Translations under genes and position numbers: made by a program
Shown here: positions 34-49,885 of the stretch, piece after piece
Layout of the letters: each line of letters opens with the position of its first letter
Numbering within the stretch: the first letter of the stretch is position 1
Assembly (NCBI GenBank): GCA_014138725.1
Contig: JACJID010000002.1
Location: forward strand, 1,936,001 to 2,000,000
Reading direction: 5' to 3'
Source of the DNA: Kutzneria viridogrisea
Lineage (GTDB): Bacteria; Actinomycetota; Actinomycetes; Mycobacteriales; Pseudonocardiaceae
Length of the DNA stretch: 64,000 bases
Notes under the pieces: generated by a model
Seen by the model: the letters and a program-made list of their open reading frames with translations, nothing else
Database searches by the model: none
What the model was told of the DNA's origin: nothing

Positions 34-555
34 GTGTCCGTAGGAGAAACCGTACTCAAACGCGTGCCGGAGCCCTTCCGGTCCTTCGCGTACAAACACC
101 GCGAGCTGGTGAAGTTCGCGGTGGTCGGTGGCACCTGCTTCGTCATCGACACGGCACTCTTCCTCGGCCTGAAGTCGACGATCCTGACGACGCACCCCGT
201 CACCGCGAAGATCATCGCGACGTTGATCGCGACGATCGTGTCGTACATCCTCAACCGCGAGTGGTCCTTCCGCACCAGGGGCGGCCGGGAACGCCCGCAC
301 GAGGCGGCGCTGTTCTTCCTGGTCAGCGGCATCGGCGTGGGCCTGAACTCGGTACCGCTGTGGATCTCCCGCTACGGGTTGCAGCTGGACTACAACCACC
401 TCAGCCCGTTCGGGGTGCAGGTCGCCGACTTCGTCAGCGCCCAGATCATCGGCACCCTGCTGGCCATGGGCTTCCGCTGGTGGGCGTTCAAGAAGTTCGT
501 CTTCCCCGACGCCAACGCCCGCCCCCGCCTCGTCACCACCGAGGACGAGGACTAA
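34..555 (+). CDS. GtrA family membrane protein
   Basis: This 173-residue polytopic membrane protein has the GtrA layout. About four hydrophobic helices run from residue 25 to 155, and a short basic and acidic tail follows. Family members are thought to move polyprenyl-linked sugars across the membrane for cell-wall or surface glycan modification; no catalytic motif is expected. The motif KFAVVGGTCFVIDTALF near the N-terminus is typical. The GTG start is preceded by TACACT at 21-26, 7 nt upstream, so the transcript may be leaderless. It corresponds in position to Rv3277 of M. tuberculosis. The substrate is unknown. Confidence 0.88.
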   Translation: MSVGETVLKRVPEPFRSFAYKHRELVKFAVVGGTCFVIDTALFLGLKSTILTTHPVTAKIIATLIATIVSYILNREWSFRTRGGRERPHEAALFFLVSGIGVGLNSVPLWISRYGLQLDYNHLSPFGVQVADFVSAQIIGTLLAMGFRWWAFKKFVFPDANARPRLVTTEDED

Positions 556-567
556 CCCACCCCACCT

Positions 568-610
568 CGTGTCGGCGCCCCAGCACCGCGTGTCGGCGCT
601 TCCGGTACGG
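568..610 (+). repeat. Two copies of the 22-bp CGTGTCGG repeat
   Basis: Two adjacent units beginning CGTGTCGGCGC lie at 568-588 (21 bp, degenerate) and 589-610, just downstream of the GtrA gene. They are the same family as the seven-unit array at 31734-31887 and run directly into the 21-bp CGAGTCCC array. Confidence 0.75.
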
Positions 611-715
611 CGAGTCCCGCTCTGTGGCACGCGAGTCCCGGCCAGGTGCACGCCAGTCCCGCTCTCCAGCAGCCGAGTCCCGCCCAGGAGCACACGAGTC
701 CCGCTGATCAGGCAT
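611..715 (+). repeat. Forward half of mirror array, five 21-bp CGAGTCCC units
   Basis: CGAGTCCC (one unit CCAGTCCC) starts at 611, 632, 653, 674 and 695, an exact 21-bp period. With 757-830 it fills the 300-bp space between the convergent GtrA and histidine kinase genes. No protein-coding gene is credible here. Confidence 0.9.
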
Positions 716-756
716 GCGTGCCCCGTTTCACCGGAGTCCTCGCTCGCCTGCTGAAC

Positions 757-830
757 GGGACTCGTCGTCCAGTGAGCGGGACTCGCGCCCCTGTGGGCGG
801 GACTCGCGCGTGGGTGAGCGGGACACGCCG
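757..830 (-). repeat. Inverted half of mirror array, four 21-bp units
   Basis: GGGACTCG (last unit GGGACACG) starts at 757, 778, 799 and 820, again an exact 21-bp period. It is the reverse complement of the units at 611-715. The two halves could pair in RNA as a long imperfect hairpin at the shared 3' ends of two converging genes. Confidence 0.9.
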
Positions 831-855
831 GTGGCTGGACGGGGTATGCCGGTGG

Positions 856-2139
856 TCAGCGCGGGCCGCCGTCGGTGCGCCAGCCGACACCGGTCAGCGC
901 GTCGTCGGTCCTGGACACGGGCAGGAACAGCGCGAAGGTCGCGGGCTTGGCCGTCGCCAGTTCCATGCGACCGCCGTCGGCGTCGACCAGCGCCCTGGCC
1001 AGGGCCAGGCCCACACCAGTCGAGCCGTGACCGGACACGCCGCGTTCGAAGATGTGCCCGGTCAGCTCGTCCGGCACACCGGGTCCGCTGTCACTGACCT
1101 CGATCACCGCAGTGCCGCCCTCGCTCGCGCGGGCGGCCAGCAACACGGCGCCGCCGCCGTGTTGTAGGGCGTTGTCCAGCAGCACACCGATCGCCTCACG
1201 CAGGCGTGCGGGCGTGGCTCGCACCACCAGGCCGTCCGGCACCTTGACGCGCAGCGCCCTGCCCTCGGCTCGCAGCAGGGTCCGCCACTCCTCGGCCATC
1301 GTCGGCAGCTGCTCGGCCAGGTCGATCGGCTCGGCGCCCGAGGCACGGGCGGCACGGGCCGCGGCCAGCAGCTCCTCCAGCGTGTGGGCGAGCCGGTCGC
1401 ACTGTTCCAGCGCCTCGCCCGCCTCGGCCGAGGTCTCGGGGTCGGGGTGCGTGGCCAGAGACTCGAGTCTCAGTTGCAGGGCCGTGAGCCTGCTGCGCAG
1501 TTGGTGTGACACGTCGCCGACCAGCTCGCGCTCACGAGTCACCAGCTGGGCCAGCGCCGAGGCGGAGGTGTCCAGCACCTCGGCGAGCTTGTCCAGCTCG
1601 GAGACCCCGTGCCTGCGCGGGTCAGGGCGGAAGTCGCCCGCACCGAGCCGTCCCGCCCGCTCGGCCACGTCCTGCAACGGCTCGGCGAGCCGCCGTGCGG
1701 TGACCGTGGCGACGACCATGCCGATGCTCACCGAGAGCACCATCAGCAGCAGCACGAACCCGGCCACGCCGAACTGCTTGGTACGGGTCGGCCCGGAGGG
1801 GATCGACAGCTCCACCGACCCGGCGGGCAGCAGGATGGCATCCGTGCGCAGCGGGTCGGGGCCGGGGTCGGTGCCGATGGTCTGGTCGGCCTTGCCGGGC
1901 AGGCTGACCCGCAGCAGGCCGTCCGAGGGCACGGCGACCCGGACCGAGTCCAGGTCGATCGACCCGCGCTGGGCCTGCTGCTCGACCAGCCGCGTGGCGA
2001 TGTTCTCGGCGAGCTGTTGGAGGGTGGTGGTGCTGTAGGTCTGGACCAGCAGCACGGTGGTGACGCCGAGTGGCACACCGAGCGCGAACCCGGTCACCGC
2101 CACGGCGAGCAGGATGGCCTGCAGGATCCGCTTGCGCAC
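856..2139 (-). CDS. Sensor histidine kinase
   Basis: A 427-residue membrane-bound sensor kinase. One transmembrane helix lies at about 8-33, an extracellular segment at about 34-122, and a second helix at about 123-145. A HAMP linker and a HisKA dimerisation domain follow, with the phospho-accepting His212 in DVSHQLRSRLTAL. The HATPase domain shows the N-box (DNALQHGG) and G-boxes (DSGPGVPDE, GSTGVGLALA). It starts 5 bp after the stop of the OmpR-type regulator at 2145-2819, so the two form one transcription unit. The signal sensed cannot be told from sequence. Its 3' end faces the mirror-repeat array. Confidence 0.93.
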   Translation of the reverse strand: MRKRILQAILLAVAVTGFALGVPLGVTTVLLVQTYSTTTLQQLAENIATRLVEQQAQRGSIDLDSVRVAVPSDGLLRVSLPGKADQTIGTDPGPDPLRTDAILLPAGSVELSIPSGPTRTKQFGVAGFVLLLMVLSVSIGMVVATVTARRLAEPLQDVAERAGRLGAGDFRPDPRRHGVSELDKLAEVLDTSASALAQLVTRERELVGDVSHQLRSRLTALQLRLESLATHPDPETSAEAGEALEQCDRLAHTLEELLAAARAARASGAEPIDLAEQLPTMAEEWRTLLRAEGRALRVKVPDGLVVRATPARLREAIGVLLDNALQHGGGAVLLAARASEGGTAVIEVSDSGPGVPDELTGHIFERGVSGHGSTGVGLALARALVDADGGRMELATAKPATFALFLPVSRTDDALTGVGWRTDGGPR

Positions 2140-3768: not shown

Positions 3769-4035
3769 TCAGTCGCCGGTCGGCAGTACCCCCACGGCAC
3801 CGCGCGCGACCTGGGCCCAGGTCAGCCGCCCGAACAGGTAGTGGCAGGCCACCTGCTCGTTGCTGAACCTGGCCCAGTCGTAGCGGTTGCCCTGCTCGCG
3901 CCAGAACACCTCCCAGCTGGCCCCGTCCTCCTCGGGGAGCAGGCACCACGCGTTGTCCGCCTCGGCACCCACCGACACCAGTTCGGTGGGCACGCCGACG
4001 GTCTCCAGCCAGGTCGCGACCGACTCGGCGTTCAT
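3769..4035 (-). CDS. Small acidic protein, putative immunity protein to the TNT toxin
   Basis: An 88-residue acidic, soluble protein with no signal peptide. Its ATG overlaps the toxin stop codon (ATGA at 4032-4035), so the two are translationally coupled. In polymorphic and type VII secreted toxin loci the gene directly after the toxin usually encodes its immunity protein, and M. tuberculosis CpnT/TNT has such an inhibitor (IFT). I cannot show sequence similarity to IFT, so the role is inferred from position and size. Aromatic residues are frequent (seven Trp or Tyr), as in many small inhibitor proteins. Confidence 0.7.
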   Translation of the reverse strand: MNAESVATWLETVGVPTELVSVGAEADNAWCLLPEEDGASWEVFWREQGNRYDWARFSNEQVACHYLFGRLTWAQVARGAVGVLPTGD

Positions 4036-6236
4036 GACACTGCCTCCAGGTATCCCATGGCGATCAGGTCGGCGGCCGGGTAGACCGCGCGGTAGCGCCG
4101 GCCGCCCCCGGGCTGGCCGAACCACGGTGCGCTCAGCGTGCGCCACACCGGCAGCCGGCCGGTGACCCGGTAGCGCTGGTAGCCCGCGTCCAGGTGCCCC
4201 GGCGGCAGCGAGCGCTGGGCGAAGGGCGTGCCCTCCGGCGCGAAGACCCGGCCCTCGGCGTCACCGAAGCGGTCGATCACGGTGCCGGGTTCCAGGATGA
4301 CGGCCTCGCCCGCGTCGCAGCCGCCCTCGGGAAACAGCTCCCCCGGCGGCCACGAGTACTCGGTGTCCTGGCTCTCGCCACCCTCACGGACCAGGAACCG
4401 GCGCTCCCAGTCGCGTTCGTGCTCACCGCCGAGCGGGTCGTGGTCCACGGCAAGGGCCTGCACCTCGGCGTCCTGCGCGGACTTGGGCTCGGGCAGCACC
4501 ACGGGGCCCGGTGCGCGCTCGTCGGTGATCAACCCCGAGTCGGGGTGGTCGTGCGGCGGGAAACGCAGGCCGGGGGCGAAGTCCACGTGCTGTTCCGGCA
4601 GCGGCAGCTGGCGGGCGGGCCGCGAACTGGGCACCGGCATGTGCCCGATCGGGAACAGGTAGGCGAGGAACAGCGCGGGCGAGTCCTCCGGGCGCAGCAC
4701 CGGCTTGACGGGCCGGGGAGCGGGGACCGGCTTGGCCACCTGGTCGGGGGCGACCCCGGTGAGCGCCCCGTCGGCGAGCGGTCCGCGCCGGGCCTCGGCG
4801 CTCGGTGCGACGGCACCGGCTTGCACGCCGGGGGCACTACCCACACCAGCGACGACTCCGGCGACGCCGGGCTGCACGCGTGGCGCGGCACCACCGCCGG
4901 AGGCAGCACCACCGCCAGGAGCAGCACCGCCAAGCACCCCGGAACCGGCAGCGGCACCAGGCGCGGCACCGCCAGGTGCGGCACCACCAGGCACCGAGCC
5001 GCCGGACACGGCGCCACCGGGTGGGACCGCGCCAGGAGCAGCGCCGCCAAGGGCGCCGGGGCCGTAACCGCCGGGCGCCGAGGTGTGGTCGGCCGACCAG
5101 TAGGTGGGCGCAACGGGCTGGGCGGGCGGCGGTTGGTAGCCGCCGACCGCGGGCGCGCTGGCGACTGGGGGCGGCAGCACCGGGGCCGCGGCGGCCTGCA
5201 CGCTGGTGCCCTGCACGGGCAGGTGGATCGGACCGGTCGGCGGGTTCGGGTCCCCGTAGTCCGGCTTGGCGTAGCCGCCGCCGTGCTGCACGGGGATCGG
5301 TCCGGTCGGCGGGTCGACGTGGCTGGGTGCACCGCCCGAGGCAGCGTTCACGACGTGGCGGGGCACCGGGCCGGTGACCTCGGCCGAGTTGTCCACAGCG
5401 GGGTGCACGACCGCGGCGGGATCGGGCAGGCCGACGGTCTTCGTCACCTCGGGCACGACGCCGCCAGGCACCGCCCCCGGCAGACCGGGCACCGGGGAGG
5501 CCCCGGCCGGGTCCGTGCCCTGCGCCGCCGTGGTGGGGCTCAGCGGCTGCTTGGTCACCGGGTCCACGTACTGCTTGAGCTCCGGGTCCCACACCGGGTC
5601 GGTGGCCTTGTGCTCGCCGTCCTGCGGGGTGAGCAGGTCGTCCACCCCGGGCAGCCCGGCGGCGAGGCCGAGCAGGCCGCCCTTCGGGCCGTGCACGTCG
5701 AGCGGGCCGTCGGTGGTGGCGGGGTGCGCGGGGTCGACCTGCACGGACTGGCCCTTGAGGTTCACCGACTCGGTGAGGTCGCCGAGGATGCCGTTGATGT
5801 CCAGCGCGGCCCCGGAGAGCAGGTGGTCGTCCGAGGCCTTGGCCGTGCCACCGAGCACCCCGGACAGGTCGGTGGACCTCGCCAGCGAGCTCAGCTTCGC
5901 GGTGATCCGCACCTTGGCCGAGGCGATCTTGTCGGCGGCCTGCTCCAACCGGTCGGCGGCCTCCAGGCAACCCTTGACGGCCGCGGTGAAGTGGCCGTTC
6001 TCGGCGTGCACGAACCTGCCCCAGTACGTCTTGGCGGCGTCGGCGGCCTGACCGGTCATCGCGTCCAGTGCCTGGCCCGCGGTGGTGTCCGCGTCACGGG
6101 CCAGCGTGCTGATCTTGGCGGCGGCCTCGCGCCAGGCCTGCGCGGCGGTGTGCATGGCGGTCTCGTCGGCCTGCGGCCACTGGACGCCCACCTTGGCCGC
6201 GACACCGGCCAACTCGGTTGGCAGGGCGATACCCAT
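4032..6236 (-). CDS. CpnT-like type VII secreted toxin with C-terminal TNT (NAD+ glycohydrolase) domain
   Basis: A 734-residue polymorphic toxin. Residues 1-130 are an Ala-rich helical ESX-substrate domain resembling the CpnT N-terminus. Residues of about 230-520 are a low-complexity Pro/Gly/Ala linker. The last ~108 residues (627-734) match the TNT fold: a WPP motif, PGTVIDRFG (Arg656), RSLPP, and APWFGQPGGG with Gln708. TNT domains hydrolyse NAD+ and kill cells that lack the inhibitor. Where many TNT proteins have YHxY, this one reads YQRY (Gln687). It is third in a four-gene minus-strand operon after YbaB-like and WXG100-like genes. It is probably exported by an ESX system encoded elsewhere. 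Confidence 0.9.
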   Translation of the reverse strand: MGIALPTELAGVAAKVGVQWPQADETAMHTAAQAWREAAAKISTLARDADTTAGQALDAMTGQAADAAKTYWGRFVHAENGHFTAAVKGCLEAADRLEQAADKIASAKVRITAKLSSLARSTDLSGVLGGTAKASDDHLLSGAALDINGILGDLTESVNLKGQSVQVDPAHPATTDGPLDVHGPKGGLLGLAAGLPGVDDLLTPQDGEHKATDPVWDPELKQYVDPVTKQPLSPTTAAQGTDPAGASPVPGLPGAVPGGVVPEVTKTVGLPDPAAVVHPAVDNSAEVTGPVPRHVVNAASGGAPSHVDPPTGPIPVQHGGGYAKPDYGDPNPPTGPIHLPVQGTSVQAAAAPVLPPPVASAPAVGGYQPPPAQPVAPTYWSADHTSAPGGYGPGALGGAAPGAVPPGGAVSGGSVPGGAAPGGAAPGAAAGSGVLGGAAPGGGAASGGGAAPRVQPGVAGVVAGVGSAPGVQAGAVAPSAEARRGPLADGALTGVAPDQVAKPVPAPRPVKPVLRPEDSPALFLAYLFPIGHMPVPSSRPARQLPLPEQHVDFAPGLRFPPHDHPDSGLITDERAPGPVVLPEPKSAQDAEVQALAVDHDPLGGEHERDWERRFLVREGGESQDTEYSWPPGELFPEGGCDAGEAVILEPGTVIDRFGDAEGRVFAPEGTPFAQRSLPPGHLDAGYQRYRVTGRLPVWRTLSAPWFGQPGGGRRYRAVYPAADLIAMGYLEAVS

Positions 6237-23713: not shown

Positions 23714-24487
23714 ATGTCGCTGACCATCTCGGCGCTGGAGTTCGACGTGCTCTGGGAGCACCTCAGGTTCGACCAGCCGCCGCTGGCACTGCACGTGCCC
23801 TCACCGGGCAAGACCTACACCGAGCGGGCCGAGCTCGCCGACGCCGTGTGGGACTCGCTGGCCGAACGCGGACTCGTCGGCGGCAGCTCCGGCATCGACC
23901 CCGCGCTGGTCGACCTGCTGTGCCTGCTCGACCGCCCGCAGTACGAGATCGACGCCCGGCTGTGGATCGGGCAGGGCGTGCGGGCCGTGGCCGCCGCGAA
24001 GGGCCAGGACGGGGTGCTGGCCGTACTCACCGAGGACACGCTCACCCTGCGGTCGATCATCGCCGAGGGCATGCCGCACGCCGTGCTGTCCCTGCTGCCC
24101 GACCTGCCCGCGGGCCCCGGCTACTCGGTGAGCGTGCCCAGCGCCGAACTGGACGCCGCCGTGGAGCAGACCAGCACCCCGGACGACCTGGGCTGGGTGC
24201 TGCGCGACCACGGGGTGAGCCCGGCGGACGCCGACGAACTCGGCGCGATGGTCACCGGGGTGCGGGCGCGCGGCCAGTTCGGCGCGGCGGCCCGCGACCG
24301 CTGGGGCAGGCGGCACCGGCCCGACCGCGTGGTCGGCTACTTCGACACGGTGCGGGGGCGCTACGTGCAGTTGCGGCGTGCCGAGCCGGGTGGGCAGGCG
24401 TGGAGCACCGTGGCGCCCGCCGACCAGCGCCGCCTGGGCCAGCACGTGGTCGACCTGGTCAACGAGGCCGCCGCCCTGGCCCACTGA
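23714..24487 (+). CDS. EspG-family ESX secretion chaperone
   Basis: A 257-residue EspG-family protein, cytosolic chaperones that hold the tip of PPE proteins before export. The fold is suggested by the N-terminal ISALEFDVLWEHLRF, a long mixed alpha/beta body, and a C-terminal PDRVVGYFDTVRGRYV strand pair. It starts 2 bp after the PPE stop, completing a small-PPE-EspG operon. Its 3' end faces the second mirror-repeat array. Confidence 0.85.
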   Translation: MSLTISALEFDVLWEHLRFDQPPLALHVPSPGKTYTERAELADAVWDSLAERGLVGGSSGIDPALVDLLCLLDRPQYEIDARLWIGQGVRAVAAAKGQDGVLAVLTEDTLTLRSIIAEGMPHAVLSLLPDLPAGPGYSVSVPSAELDAAVEQTSTPDDLGWVLRDHGVSPADADELGAMVTGVRARGQFGAAARDRWGRRHRPDRVVGYFDTVRGRYVQLRRAEPGGQAWSTVAPADQRRLGQHVVDLVNEAAALAH

Positions 24488-24508
24488 CCACACCAGCCCA
24501 CCGGCCCG

Positions 24509-24603
24509 CGAGTCCCGCCCAGCCGCAGCCGAGTCCCGCCCACCGGCCCGCGAATCCCGCCCAGGGGCACGCGAACCCCGCCCTCCGGCCCGCGAATCCC
24601 GCT
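24509..24603 (+). repeat. Forward half of second mirror array, five 21-bp units
   Basis: CGAGTCCC or its variants (CGAATCCC, CGAACCCC) start at 24509, 24530, 24551, 24572 and 24593, exactly 21 bp apart. Unit, number and period equal those at 611-715. Confidence 0.9.
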
Positions 24604-24650
24604 TTGAGAGCCCTCTCCTGCCCTCCACCCGACCCGCCCACCCCGTGCCC

Positions 24651-24750
24651 GCGTCTTCGCGCCGGTCTCTGGACCGCAGGCCGAAGATGATCACATCTGT
24701 CCAGTGATCATCTTCGGACAAGGGAAGAGACCGGACCAGAGCGAAGACGC
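24651..24750. terminator. Nested three-arm palindrome
   Basis: Three perfectly matched arm pairs nest around one centre: 24681-24694 with 24704-24717 (14 bp, 9-nt loop), 24662-24670 with 24726-24734 (9 bp), and 24651-24660 with 24741-24750 (10 bp). It could fold as one long interrupted hairpin acting on transcripts from either side. Confidence 0.75.
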
Positions 24751-24865
24751 CGCGATCCGGAGGATCGCCAAGAGCGAAGCGGGCACAGCCGTCCCCAGCG
24801 AACGCCCAAGCCCGCTCGGGAGAGCCCGCATCAGTCCAGCGGGCGACCCGAGCAACCCCGCGAGC

Positions 24866-24940
24866 GGGACTCACACCCCCGCGAGCGGGACTCACCCGCC
24901 GGAGAGCGGGACTCACACCCCCGCGAGCGGGACTCGCGCA
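24866..24940 (-). repeat. Inverted half of second mirror array, four 21-bp units
   Basis: GGGACTCR starts at 24866, 24887, 24908 and 24929, again 21 bp apart. This reproduces the five-plus-four layout at 611-830. Confidence 0.9.
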
Positions 24941-24992
24941 CCAGGGAGCGCACCAGAGCCCGCATCAGTCCACCGGCGACCCGAGCACCCCC

Positions 24993-26750
24993 TCAGCTCA
25001 CCGAGTCGAGCAGGTCCGGCCGGGCTTCCGGGGCCGCCGACCTGGCCTCGTCGGCCGCCTCGTCATCGGGCACGGTCTGCGAGGCGCGCTCGGCCTCGAC
25101 CCGTGCGGTGTAGACCTCGACCTCGCGGGCGACCCGCTTGTCGTCCCAGCCGAGCACGCCCGCCATCAGCTTGGCGACCTGCTCCGCGCAGTCCACCCCG
25201 CGGTGCGGGTACTCGATCGAGATGCGGGTCCGCCGGGTGAGCGTGTCCTCCAGGTGCAGCGCCCCCTCGTGGCTGGCCGCGTACACGATCTCGACCTGGA
25301 GGTAGTCCGGGGCGGCGGGCAGCGGGCGCAGCAGTTCGGCGTCCTCGTCGGCCACGGCGAGTACCTCGTGCACCAGCGAGCCGTACCGGTCGAGCAGGTG
25401 CCGCACGCGGTACGGGTGCAGGCCGTAGCGGGCCGCCAGCTGATCTGCCTGATTGACCAGCGCGTGGTACCCGTCCGCACCCAGCAGCGGCACCTTGTCG
25501 GTGATCGAGGGCTGCAACCGCCCGGGCAGGTCGGCGGACGCGGCGTCCACGGCGTCGGCGGCCATCACCCGGTACGTCGTGTACTTGCCGCCCGCGATCG
25601 CGACCAGTCCCGGCGCGACCCGTGCCACGGCGTGCTCGCGCGAGAGCTTGGAGGTTTCCTCGCTCTCACCGGCCAGCAGGGGCCGCAGCCCGGCGTAGAC
25701 GCCCTCGATGTCCTCGTGGGTCAGCGGCGTGGCCAGCACGGTGTTGACGTGTTCGAGGATGTAGTCGATGTCCCGCTTGGTGGCGGCGGGGTGGGCCAGG
25801 TCGAGGTTCCAGTCGGTGTCGGTGGTGCCGACGATCCAGTGGTTGCGCCACGGGATGACGAACAGCACCGACTTCTCGGTGCGCAGGATCAGCCCGGACT
25901 CGGCGACGATCCGGTCGCGCGGCACCACGATGTGCACGCCCTTGGAGGCGCGCACCCGGAACCGGCCGCGGCTGCCGGACAGCTTCTGGAGGTCGTCGGT
26001 CCACACCCCGGTGCAGTTGATCACCGCGTTGGCCTTGACCTCGGTCTCCCGGCCGTCCTCCACGTCCCGCACGCGCACGCCGGACACCCGGTCCGCCTCA
26101 CGCAGGAAGCCGACCACCTGCGTGGACGTGCGCACCACGGCCCCGTAGTGCGCCGCGGTGCGGCCGACCATCATCGTGTGCCGGGCGTCGTCGGCCTGGG
26201 CGTCGTAGTACCGGATGCCGCCGATCAGCGCGTTGCGCTTGAGTGCGGGCACCATGCGCAGGGCGCCCGCCCTGGTCAGGTGCTTCTGACCGGGCACCGA
26301 GCGCGCGCCGCCCATGGTGTCGTACAGCAGCAGCCCGGCTGCGGTGTAGGGGCGTTCCCAGATGCGGTGGCTGAGCGGGTACAGGAAGCTGACCGGCTTC
26401 ACCAGGTGCGGCGCGAGCCTGGTCAGCATCAGCTCGCGCTCGCGCAGGGCCTCCCTGACCAGCCCGAACTCCAACTGCTCCAGGTAGCGCAGACCGCCGT
26501 GGAACAGCTTGCTGGACCGGCTGGAGGTGCCCGAGGCGAGGTCGCGCGCCTCGATCAGGGCGACCCGCAGGCCGCGGGTGGCCGCGTCCAGCGCGGTGCC
26601 CACCCCGACCACGCCCCCGCCGATGACGACGAGGTCGAAGGTCTCGTTCTCCAGCCGCTGCCAGTCCCGCTCCCGTTCGTCCGTGCCGAGCCGTCCGGTC
26701 TGGGCGGCGTTGGAGCGCTCCACTGAACCACGTGGTTTCCGGCTGGCCAC
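24993..26750 (-). CDS. glpD: Glycerol-3-phosphate dehydrogenase (FAD)
   Basis: A 585-residue membrane-associated flavoprotein oxidising glycerol-3-phosphate to dihydroxyacetone phosphate and passing electrons to quinone. The N-terminal FAD loop is DLVVIGGGVVGVGTALDAATRG, followed by SSRSSKLFHGGLRYLE. The C-terminal helical domain is present. GTG 26750 is preferred because GGAGG lies 9 nt upstream; TTG 26771 and GTG 26756 are possible alternatives. It is divergent from glpF-glpK, giving a complete glycerol uptake and oxidation set. An acidic tail of about 30 residues follows the domain. Confidence 0.93.
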   Translation of the reverse strand: MASRKPRGSVERSNAAQTGRLGTDERERDWQRLENETFDLVVIGGGVVGVGTALDAATRGLRVALIEARDLASGTSSRSSKLFHGGLRYLEQLEFGLVREALRERELMLTRLAPHLVKPVSFLYPLSHRIWERPYTAAGLLLYDTMGGARSVPGQKHLTRAGALRMVPALKRNALIGGIRYYDAQADDARHTMMVGRTAAHYGAVVRTSTQVVGFLREADRVSGVRVRDVEDGRETEVKANAVINCTGVWTDDLQKLSGSRGRFRVRASKGVHIVVPRDRIVAESGLILRTEKSVLFVIPWRNHWIVGTTDTDWNLDLAHPAATKRDIDYILEHVNTVLATPLTHEDIEGVYAGLRPLLAGESEETSKLSREHAVARVAPGLVAIAGGKYTTYRVMAADAVDAASADLPGRLQPSITDKVPLLGADGYHALVNQADQLAARYGLHPYRVRHLLDRYGSLVHEVLAVADEDAELLRPLPAAPDYLQVEIVYAASHEGALHLEDTLTRRTRISIEYPHRGVDCAEQVAKLMAGVLGWDDKRVAREVEVYTARVEAERASQTVPDDEAADEARSAAPEARPDLLDSVS

Positions 26751-31721: not shown

Positions 31722-31733
31722 CGCGAGTCCCGG

Positions 31734-31887
31734 CGTGTCGGACGTTCCGGCACCGCGTGTCGGCGCTTCCCGTACCGCGTGTCGGACGTTCCGGCGCGGT
31801 GTGTCGGCGCCTTCGGTACCGCGTGTTCGACATTCCGGAACCGCGTGTCGGCGCTTCCGGTGCGGTGCGTTCGACGGTCCGGCTCAC
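31734..31887 (+). repeat. Seven-unit 22-bp repeat with alternating unit types
   Basis: Units start at 31734, 31756, 31778, 31800, 31822, 31844 and 31866 with a strict 22-bp period. Each begins with CGTGTCGG or a variant. Odd units continue with ACGTTCC-like sequence and even units with CGCTTCC-like sequence, giving a 44-bp higher-order period. The array lies between two converging genes, and the last unit overlaps the neighbouring stop codon. Confidence 0.9.
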
Positions 31888-32858: not shown

Positions 32859-32902
32859 CCGCACGGGAACGTCCGACACGCCGTACCGGAAGCGCCGACA
32901 CG
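32859..32902 (-). repeat. Two 22-bp repeat units, inverted orientation
   Basis: One unit of each type (32859-32880 and 32881-32902) is present on the minus strand, belonging to the family of the array at 31734. They follow the paired DnaA boxes and precede the end of the amidohydrolase gene. Confidence 0.8.
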
Positions 32903-32916
32903 CGGTGTGGAACAGC

Positions 32917-34209
32917 TCAGGCCAGGGCGGTCAGGGCGGTGTGGACCATCAGCCGGATGCCCACGGGGATCGCCCGCTCGTCGAGCACGAAGGTCGGCTG
33001 GTGCAGGTCGTACTGCCGCCCCTCGCCGCTCCACACACCCAGGCGCGCGAACGAGCCGGCCACGTGTTCCAGGTACCAGGCGAAGTCCTCGCCGCCGGAG
33101 GACTGCTCGGTCCCGGCCAGCGCGTCCTCGCCCAGTGCCGCCTCCACGCCCGCGCGCAGCAGCGCGGTGCTCTCCGCCTCGTTGACCACGGGCGGCACCC
33201 CGCGGGTGTGCACCAGTTCGAAGCCCACCCCGGTCGGCCACAGCAGCGACTGCACCAGGTCCTTGACCAGCGGTTCCAGGTCCTCCCACACGTGGTGGTC
33301 CCCGGTGCGCAGGGTGCCGCGCAGCACTCCGCTCTGCGGCACGGCGTTGGCGGCCTCACCCGCGTGCACCGCACCCCAGGTCAGCACCGTGCCCGAGCGC
33401 GGGTCGACCCGGCGGTTGAGCAGCGCGGGCAGGCCGGTGATCACCGTGCCGAGCGCGTGCACCAGGTCGGCGGTCAGGTGCGGACGCGAGGTGTGCCCAC
33501 CGGGCGAGGTCAGCCGCAGCTCCAGCATGTCGGCGGCGGAGGTGATCGGCCCGACACGGGTGCCGACCCTGCCGACCTGCAGCCTCGGGTCACAGTGCAG
33601 GCCGAAGATCCGCTCCACGCCCTCGAGACCGCCCGCCTCGATGACGCGCAGCGCTCCGCCGGGCATGGCCTCCTCGGCGGGCTGGAACACCAGCCGCACG
33701 CGGCCGGGCAGCTCGGGGGCGGAGGCCAGGGCCAGGGCCGCGCCGAGCAGCACCGCGGTGTGCGCGTCGTGACCGCACGCGTGGCACGCACCGTCCACTG
33801 TGGATGAGAATGGCAGGCCGGTGGCCTCGGTCAGCGGCAGCGCGTCGATGTCGGCCCGCAGCGCCACGCAGCGCTCGCCGGTGCCGATGTCGCAGAGCAG
33901 ACCGGTCCCGCCGGGCAGCACCTTCGGGTGCAGACCCGCCGAGCGCAGTTGGCTGACGAGTAGGTCTGTGGTCTGGTGCTCCTGGTAGGACAGCTCGGGG
34001 TGCGCGTGCACGTGCCGCCGCCAGGCGACGACGTCGGCGAGCCCTCTGCCCAGCCACTCGTCGAGCCAGGACGGGCCACGTCCGGCACCGAGGTCCTGCA
34101 CGTCTGACATGCTGACCCCGGAGTCGGTGATCAGCATCTCGGAACCTGCTTCGCGCCGGTCGCCCTCGCCCTCCAGGGGCAGCTCGGGCCGCGAGTCCAG
34201 CACGGTCAC
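32917..34209 (-). CDS. M20D family amidohydrolase (AmiA1-like)
   Basis: A metal-dependent amidohydrolase of the IAA-amino acid hydrolase/M20D group, 430 residues from GTG 34209. The metal-binding motifs are HAHPELSYQE, DGACHACGHDAHTA and QPAEEAMPGGA. GTG 34209 overlaps the upstream stop (GTGA), which favours coupling, but it adds about 33 residues to the usual N-terminus; ATG 34110 is an alternative. It corresponds in position to amiA1 (Rv3305c). The N-acyl amino acid or peptide substrate is unknown. Confidence 0.87.
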   Translation of the reverse strand: MTVLDSRPELPLEGEGDRREAGSEMLITDSGVSMSDVQDLGAGRGPSWLDEWLGRGLADVVAWRRHVHAHPELSYQEHQTTDLLVSQLRSAGLHPKVLPGGTGLLCDIGTGERCVALRADIDALPLTEATGLPFSSTVDGACHACGHDAHTAVLLGAALALASAPELPGRVRLVFQPAEEAMPGGALRVIEAGGLEGVERIFGLHCDPRLQVGRVGTRVGPITSAADMLELRLTSPGGHTSRPHLTADLVHALGTVITGLPALLNRRVDPRSGTVLTWGAVHAGEAANAVPQSGVLRGTLRTGDHHVWEDLEPLVKDLVQSLLWPTGVGFELVHTRGVPPVVNEAESTALLRAGVEAALGEDALAGTEQSSGGEDFAWYLEHVAGSFARLGVWSGEGRQYDLHQPTFVLDERAIPVGIRLMVHTALTALA

Positions 34210-49207: not shown

Positions 49208-49825
49208 GTGACCGAACAGCCCGATCCCCGCGAACTGCGCGCCTCCGACGCAGACCGGGAGAAGGTCGCCAAGGTGCTGCACGAGGCCATGTCCGAGGGT
49301 CGGTTGACCGTCGGCGAGCTGGACGAACGGCTGAGCGGCCTGTACCAGGCGCGGACCTTCGGTGAGCTGGAGGTCTTCACCAGGGACCTGCCCACCCAGG
49401 GCACTCCCGCGCCGGTGCCCGTCCCGAGTGGACGGTCGCCGCTGATCGGCGGCCAGCCCGACTCCGCCAACGCCGTGGCGATCATGAGCGGGGTGCGCCG
49501 CAGGGGCAACTGGGTGGTGCCCGCGCACCTGACGGTCTTCGCCTTCTGGGGCGGGGTCGACCTGGACCTGCGTGCGGCCACGTTCCAGCAGCGCGAGTGC
49601 ACGATCACCGCCACGGCGATCATGGGCGGGGTGACCATCATCGTGCCGCCCGAGCTGACCGTGCAGGTCCAGGGCATCGGCGTGATGGGCGGCTTCGACC
49701 GGGACGCGGCCGGGGTCGGCGACCCGAACGGGCCGGTGCTGCGCGTCAACGGGCTGGCGTTCTGGGGCGGGGTGCAGATCAAGCGCAAGCCGCGCAAGTC
49801 CGACCGCCGCAAGCTCACCCGCTGA
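49208..49825 (+). CDS. DUF1707 protein with LiaF-like C-terminal beta domain
   Basis: A 205-residue cytosolic protein. The N-terminal DUF1707 domain (LRASDADREKVAKVLHEAM, LTVGELDERLSGLYQART) covers about 9-63. The C-terminal beta-helix-like part (FWGGVDLDLRAATF, IMGGVTIIVPPELTV, FWGGVQIKRK) resembles LiaF/DUF2154 cell-wall stress proteins. Unlike the paralogues at 19679 and 20296 it has no membrane helix. TAGGCT at 49196-49201 lies 6 nt before GTG. Confidence 0.85.
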   Translation: MTEQPDPRELRASDADREKVAKVLHEAMSEGRLTVGELDERLSGLYQARTFGELEVFTRDLPTQGTPAPVPVPSGRSPLIGGQPDSANAVAIMSGVRRRGNWVVPAHLTVFAFWGGVDLDLRAATFQQRECTITATAIMGGVTIIVPPELTVQVQGIGVMGGFDRDAAGVGDPNGPVLRVNGLAFWGGVQIKRKPRKSDRRKLTR

Positions 49826-49830
49826 ACCGG

Positions 49831-49885
49831 CGAGTCCCGCTCACCCACGCGCGAGTCCCGCCCACAGGCACGCGAGTCCCGCTCG
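49831..49885 (+). repeat. Three 21-bp CGAGTCCC units
   Basis: CGAGTCCC starts at 49831, 49852 and 49873, again 21 bp apart, immediately after the DUF1707 gene. No inverted half follows; the next gene runs in the same direction. Confidence 0.88.

Follow-up and report, generated by a model that had tools for sequence, protein, structure and literature searches.

A helically phased 21-bp repeat in rows behind gene ends of a Kutzneria genome: candidate protein sites between convergent genes

In rDNA, rows of short sites stand behind gene ends, namely the Sal boxes of TTF-I and the sites of Reb1, and the protein bound there stops RNA polymerase. By place and abundance, the nearest kind to the arrays described here is REP/BIME. 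In the available portion of PMC3733652, these are short dispersed repeats present in many copies behind genes and between convergent ones, often as inverted pairs; they carry a GTAG or CGTC end tag, and roles in termination and supercoiling have been proposed for them. An element like the present one was not found described in the literature searched, including the available portions of PMC4210621 (Kutzneria albida genome), PMC6749651 (prokaryote satellites) and PMC3733652 (REPs).

The array lies near the start of the window, that is, the whole 64-kb stretch of DNA that was analysed. The left gene is on the + strand with its stop codon at 553–555, and the right gene is on the − strand and ends at 856, thus the two genes are convergent, as they were initially annotated. 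Between the stop codons we found five forward units with the core CGAGTCCCG and four inverted units with the core CGGGACTCG, at a step of exactly 21 bp throughout each half (Table 1), and these core positions bear out the nine-unit mirror array first described. Its limits, given as 611..830, hold for the array itself and are slightly narrow at the borders, because more units lie at 568, 589 and 840–848. The variant units CGTGTCGGCG at 568 and 589 are 21 bp apart, followed by 22 bp to the forward core at 611, and degenerate units judged by eye are present at 716 and 840–848. Since the variant and degenerate units prolong the rows, the array reaches almost from stop to stop, with 12 nt between the left stop codon and the unit at 568. 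The distance from the core end of forward unit 5 (703) to the first inverted core (756) is 52 bp, which belongs to the 5-turn class of gaps described below. The left gene was read from a GTG at 34, and the gene caller used here favours 64. Rfam 15 at the gathering score gave no match in the 64-kb window, and plasmids gave no match to window 556–855.

Table 1. Coordinates in the window of the array, its two flanking genes, the sibling arrays and the second repeat family
Feature	Position	Strand	Remarks
Left gene, GtrA/DPMS transmembrane-domain protein	34..555	+	Pfam PF04138, E 4.2e-25; stop codon 553-555
Two variant units, second family (CGTGTCGGCG...)	568..609	+	12 nt from left gene stop
Forward unit 1, CGAGTCCCG + 12	611..631	+	
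Forward unit 2	632..652	+	
Forward unit 3, core CCAGTCCCG, one mismatch	653..673	+	
Forward unit 4	674..694	+	
Forward unit 5	695..715	+	
Degenerate unit, in register	716..736	+	by eye
Inverted unit 1, core 756-764	744..764	-	
Inverted unit 2, core 777-785	765..785	-	
Inverted unit 3, core 798-806	786..806	-	
Inverted unit 4, core 819-827 = CGGGACACG, one mismatch	807..827	-	
Degenerate inverted unit, 7 nt from right gene stop	828..848	-	by eye
Right gene, HAMP/HisKA/HATPase sensor histidine kinase	856..2139	-	
Sibling forward array	24496..24602	+	starts 8 nt 3' of the stop of the gene ending at 24487
Sibling inverted array, facing the 24496-24602 array	24838..24950	-	behind the end of the - strand gene 24993-26723
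Sibling forward array	49830..49884	+	4 nt directly behind the gene end at 49825
Array of second, 22-bp family (CGTGTCGGCGCTTCCGGTACCG)	31733..31883	+	one CGAGTCCC core at 31724
Inverted copies of second family	32859..32903	-	behind the - strand gene 32917-34209

The sibling arrays and the second-family rows in Table 1 were taken from a tandem-repeat list of the window, and the limits of the three siblings are approximate. The second family, CGTGTCGGCGCTTCCGGTACCG, shares CGWGTC with the main unit; its 21-letter pattern has 54 exact copies in the genome and none in six congeners, and its step is 22 bp in 15 of 16 close exact pairs of the sampled blocks. Between the two facing siblings, at about 24650–24752, there is a large imperfect inverted repeat, recognized by eye (GCGTCTTCGC ... 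GCGAAGACGC), that encloses an inner CGAAGATGATCAC/GTGATCATCTTCG pair. Elsewhere in the window, positions 4032–6236 on the − strand encode a 734-aa protein with a WXG100-like N-terminus and a C-terminal TNT (tuberculosis necrotizing toxin) domain, and a small ORF at 3769–4035 overlaps the end of this gene and could, as a guess, be its immunity gene.

We then counted the spaced pair CGAGTCCCG-N12-CGAGTCCCG over the whole genome (10,249,642 bases in 11 contigs). It has 679 exact matches (332 + 347) and the reversed control pattern none, hence the window array is not a product of chance; the six Kutzneria congeners hold 2, 1, 1, 0, 7 and 0 such pairs. Steps of at most 32 bp between exact GAGTCCCG cores were 21 bp in 167 of 178 cases (20 in 5, 22 in 5 and 23 in 1), so that the spacing is not random, a point the initial annotation had made decisive for its reading. 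To avoid circularity, conservation was measured on 170 middle units picked solely because their neighbours at 21 bp on either side score as matches. The core (positions 1–8) is 94–99% conserved in these units, position 16 is 95% and position 0 is 80% conserved, and the remaining spacer positions range from 34 to 82%; the unit consensus is CGAGTCCCGCTCTGCGGAGCG and 165 of the 170 units are distinct. Identity between spacers is 0.507 for adjacent units and 0.473 for random unit pairs, thus neighbours are barely more alike than strangers and the spacers are close to saturated. Because the step stays at 21 bp between spacers that are nearly unrelated, both the core and its spacing appear to be under selection. 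A kept core and step with randomised spacers is not what fresh tandem duplication by itself produces, and selection on both, as read from the sequences, is the simplest account. One array (G000:C1:400797-401162) contains an 84-bp super-repeat of units, probably from recent multi-unit amplification. The array junctions at G000:C2:2017480-2017531 and G000:C9:6072-6123, near the ends of two contigs, are identical and probably reflect an overlap or a common repeat. The exact CGAGTCCCG pair with 21-bp spacing also occurs once or twice in each of 18 viral contigs, which may be chance.

Gene context was studied in 1.2 Mb, consisting of three 400-kb blocks (∼12% of the genome) with genes called by a purpose-made codon model, and 568 intergenic regions of 25–1500 bp were counted. 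Arrays were present in 39 of them: 20 of 100 convergent, 16 of 306 tandem and 3 of 162 divergent regions. A binomial test gave P = 1.8e-6 for the excess in convergent regions and 0.002 for the deficit in divergent ones. Counted by clusters, 22 of 45 were convergent, 20 tandem and 3 divergent. The preference for gene ends on which the initial annotation had staked its reading is thus present in the sampled 1.2 Mb, and this placement suggests a role at transcript ends. As for the mirror, which had been described as a fixed element, it turned out to be only one of several layouts, since one-sided arrays and the opposite mirror (−,+) also occur. Arrays often begin close to the stop codon. With an earlier gene call, 29 of 50 arrays lying in sense behind a gene end started at most 30 nt from the stop, and at three −,+ convergent loci that we examined the first antisense core starts between 1 and about 14 nt past the stop. 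Among first units at most 40 nt from a gene end, 30 are in sense and 14 in antisense, hence any direction-dependent blocking must tolerate both orientations. A strict sense orientation was rejected: the earlier count of 50 out of 62 was inflated by masking, which dropped genes whose stop overlaps an array, and 30 against 14 is the corrected figure. A coding meaning of the 21-nt (7-codon) step was rejected as well, because array-stop distances have no frame bias (remainders 0, 1 and 2 modulo 3 in 13, 11 and 11 of the 35 starts within 100 nt).

To describe the inversions, exact +,− core pairs with gaps of 8–69 bp were collected from the whole genome and one innermost gap was kept per locus (n = 32). 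The gaps are 9, 10, 20 (4), 28, 29, 30 (4), 31 (5), 40 (2), 41 (3), 50, 51, 52 (3), 57, 61, 62 (2) and 63 bp, where brackets give the number of loci if more than one. They cluster near 10, 20, 30, 41, 52 and 62 bp, and one of the 32 (57 bp) is off phase. The best period is 10.50 bp (R = 0.848), and none of 2000 uniform sets did as well at any period from 8 to 14 bp; a period of 11 bp is less good (R = 0.79), and there is no signal at 21 bp (R = 0.14). The gaps include odd as well as even multiples of a helical turn, so this period is not explained by the 21-bp unit. After removal of look-alike junctions, 26 gaps remained with R = 0.83 (0/2000), and the junctions that are less than 50% self-complementary (21 of the 31 typed) gave R = 0.82 (0/20000) and fall in two classes half a unit apart; the gap-63 locus was excluded from both the self-complementarity test and the look-alike comparison. 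A 10.5-bp gap period is the signature of B-DNA and, as far as sequence can tell, points to DNA with putative proteins on one face. The initial annotation had equated 21 bp with two helical turns and suggested a protein on one helix face; the exact 21-bp steps support the former, and phasing across the inversion is new sequence evidence in favour of the latter, putative part. The −,+ junctions follow another pattern. Their innermost gaps are 12–16 or 33–36 bp in 26 of 27 distinct junctions and 21 bp in one, with R = 0.86 at 21 bp versus 0.66 at 10.5 bp, and they often carry a short inverted repeat, CGGGACTCGCSG-loop-CSGCGAGTCCCG, with a tight gap. These junctions may be small stem-loops, and we do not claim helical phasing for them.

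From the repeat, its location, the conserved core and spacing and the 10.5-bp phase, all of which are observed, we infer with moderate confidence that an array is a row of putative sites for a cooperative DNA-binding protein, which would act as a transcription barrier or insulator at gene ends. Each 21-bp unit would hold one candidate site (GNNNGCGAGTCCCG...), and arithmetic from the mean gap phase would place the phase centre of the unit at the near-palindromic GAGTC. Neighbouring putative sites in one row would be separated by two helical turns, and those facing each other across a +,− inversion by an integral number of turns, which would bring all bound copies onto one face, where they could touch. 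With arrays sitting behind stop codons, chiefly between convergent genes, the bound row would most likely block read-through, either by roadblock termination or by insulation. If this is right, the bacterium ends or insulates genes by a phased protein array and not by an RNA hairpin or Rho, the protein should be easily found with array DNA as bait, and the phase across inversions offers a clean test by one 5-bp insertion. It would also bear on how convergent genes are separated in high-GC actinomycetes.

A location behind stop codons, with the unit in sense at 30 of the 44 nearby ends, would also suit an element that works as RNA. Transcripts of mirrored loci would then form long hairpins, or the units past the stop codon would serve repeatedly as RNA sites where a protein binds or Rho loads; we regard this reading as rather improbable. 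The mirrored window region 556–855 beats its shuffles on both strands (z −3.6 and −6.2), many −,+ junctions are short stem-loops, and the mirrored elements of congeners are long imperfect palindromes, mostly of 61–108 bp. However, when single arrays were folded against 40 dinucleotide shuffles each (51 of the 62 were long enough), the median z was +0.09 in sense and −0.17 in antisense, so the RNA hairpin as the selected form is rejected for single arrays, which fold like shuffles, and is weak for mirrored ones. At 12 mirrored loci the two arms of a locus pair with a mean of −50.8 kcal/mol versus −49.3 kcal/mol with arms of other loci; arms are therefore not specially matched on average, and in 3 of the 12 they pair with each other better than with at least 91% of foreign arms. 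The one long hairpin proposed at the outset is thus not supported as the working form, with medians near shuffles and arms unmatched on average, though the window region itself folds well. Moreover, one-sided arrays are common, and an element acting as RNA would not be expected to space its gaps by 10.5 bp. C-rich transcripts that load Rho were rejected as an explanation, since the excess of C over G has a median of only 0.05 and is positive in 30 of 51 arrays. Single arrays also differ from intrinsic terminators with a GC-rich hairpin and T run, because they have no excess structure and the T fraction in the 40 nt downstream of arrays is 0.16; the −,+ junctions do hold short stem-loops. At convergent ends, a strong hairpin (score 14) was present in 6 of 20 array regions versus 42 of 80 others (P = 0.08; P = 0.04 at score 16 and 0.13 at score 12), and tandem regions showed no effect. 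This difference was 3/16 versus 42/82 with the first gene calls and weakened with the improved ones, hence it is only a hint that the two kinds of element tend to avoid one another at convergent ends, which is the behaviour expected if either can serve as terminator in place of the other.

The DNA-level evidence, both the location bias and the phasing, also fits sites for topology, in which DNA gyrase or a nucleoid-associated protein would occupy the arrays, and these would absorb positive supercoils behind convergent genes, a role proposed for E. coli REPs/BIMEs, without being a transcription barrier. We consider this unlikely: a core conserved at 94–99% with tolerant spacers is more specific than would be expected for gyrase wrapping, and topology alone does not require that many arrays start a few nucleotides from the stop codon. 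On its side stands the targeting of gyrase to E. coli REPs at gene ends, reported in the available portion of PMC3733652. The arrays could also be a tandem repeat that is neutral or selfish and was multiplied by recombination and template switching, accumulating at gene ends because it does little harm there; the phases would then reflect preferred inversion points. Consistent with such a history are the great expansion in a single one of the seven Kutzneria genomes, recent duplications of several units at some loci (e.g. C1:400797-401162) and the palindromic nature of several mirror junctions, but core and spacing were kept while spacers were nearly randomised, and phasing survives in the 21 non-palindromic junctions, which form two classes offset by half a unit. 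Another genus, described below, has a core and step like these, and a REP-type Y1 transposase was not found in the own genome, so we rate neutral spread as quite improbable, the least probable of these accounts.

Congener loci, which were retrieved by unit patterns, have the same core as part of a single unit pair (CCCCCGCGAGTCNCGCTCTCNNGCACACCGAATGTNGGTTTCNGGCA) directly behind stop codons, usually with one copy per gene end and a different second unit at 22 bp (stop-ACCCCCG-CGAGTCNCGCTCTCNNGCAC-ACCGAATGTNGGTTTCNGGCA), whereas the own genome lines up the first unit in rows and has no match to the second-unit pattern. The first unit in its congener form is present in 6 of 7 Kutzneria genomes and 1 of 143 other genomes of the family, and the second in 5 of 7 (own genome 0) and in 4 of the 143, once each. 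The pair is mirrored at some convergent ends, with 23 distinct mirrored pairs whose commonest lengths are 61 (2), 86 (3) and 108 bp (9). For the 23 gaps of these, nine of which are 88 bp, a 12-bp period (R = 0.66) beats the 10.5-bp period (R = 0.43; P = 0.015). Among the five congeners in which the end of the kinase gene of the window was read, a single unit directly follows its stop in G001, G004 and G005 and there is none in G003 and G006. In syntenic 400-kb blocks, gene ends with a unit in both genomes numbered 4 for G003 (14 and 14 among 217 orthologues; expected 0.9), 3 for G004 (6 and 16 among 244; expected 0.4) and 5 for G005 (12 and 15 among 243; expected 0.7), with expectations by simple product and a few of the unit matches lying in coding sequence. 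By a stricter count, the 41 gene-congener pairs formed by 20 array-bearing genes and up to three congeners had a unit in 7, a hairpin in 7 and neither in 27, and 663 other gene-congener pairs had a unit in 39, a hairpin in 86 and neither in 538.

Beyond the genus, we searched 219 genomes of the order for CGAGTCNCG at 21-bp spacing. The own genome has 703 matches, seven genomes of another genus of the same family (g16) have 19, 7, 6, 1, 1, 0 and 0, and four further genomes have 1–3 that look like chance or other repeats. The reversed control gave 1–7 matches in 12 of the 219 genomes, none of them g16, thus the lower g16 counts would not be convincing by themselves. Twelve g16 loci contain rows with a looser core and other spacers, and their same-strand steps of at most 150 bp are 21 bp in 38 cases and 42 bp in 5, with no other value, although these loci were chosen for such a pair and the 43 of 43 is partly by selection. 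Only four +,− gaps were seen in g16 (54, 62, 73 and 113 bp), which is too few for a period. We tentatively extend the proposal to a boundary or terminator chromatin of bacteria, in which a putative single-faced protein filament on 21-bp sites would run from stop to stop and insulate convergent genes genome-wide; it would bridge inversions because the sites keep helical phase. Such a system might be old in Pseudonocardiaceae, with at least two genera, and have exploded in one Kutzneria species.

Compared with known systems, the arrays resemble REP/BIME, which lie between convergent or unidirectional genes and not divergent ones, in location (convergent 20/100, tandem 16/306, divergent 3/162) and fail as members of that class on the unit, the end tag and the transposase. 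The REP/BIME unit is a palindromic stem-loop of 20–40 bp, whereas single arrays fold like shuffles in sense at the median and only some junctions are palindromic; neither GTAG nor CGTC occurs in the unit consensus, judged on the consensus only; and arrays, unlike REP/BIME, form head-to-tail rows at a fixed 21 bp with helical phasing across +,− inversions. The REP-associated Y1 transposase (PF01797) has no match in the own genome and a partial one in 1 of 7 Kutzneria genomes, while it was matched in 5 of 14 control genomes including E. coli, so REP/RAYT mobilisation was rejected. Kutzneria also has giant hairpin families that are dispersed and species-specific like the arrays, but these are long near-perfect palindromes and single-row arrays form no such structure. 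Such palindromes at gene ends differ per genome, being TGCCATGAAAGTGCCGTT...AACGGCACTTTCATGGCA in the own genome (from blocks L031-L090), TTCGGAACGGACCATTCCTCAA in G003 (L196-L215) and ATGCAGGGAAGGACGCCTTACCC in G004 (L216-L235). Of 25 non-coding matches to one arm in the own genome, 14 are located in convergent intergenic regions, and these families are likely dispersed bidirectional terminators. The arrays may work like the terminator-protein arrays of rDNA, an analogy with which location and phasing fit. TTF-I and Reb1 are eukaryotic and serve one type of locus, whereas the arrays are bacterial and genome-wide and their protein is a putative one; a helix-phased protein row of this kind, if true, would make them a new kind of element.
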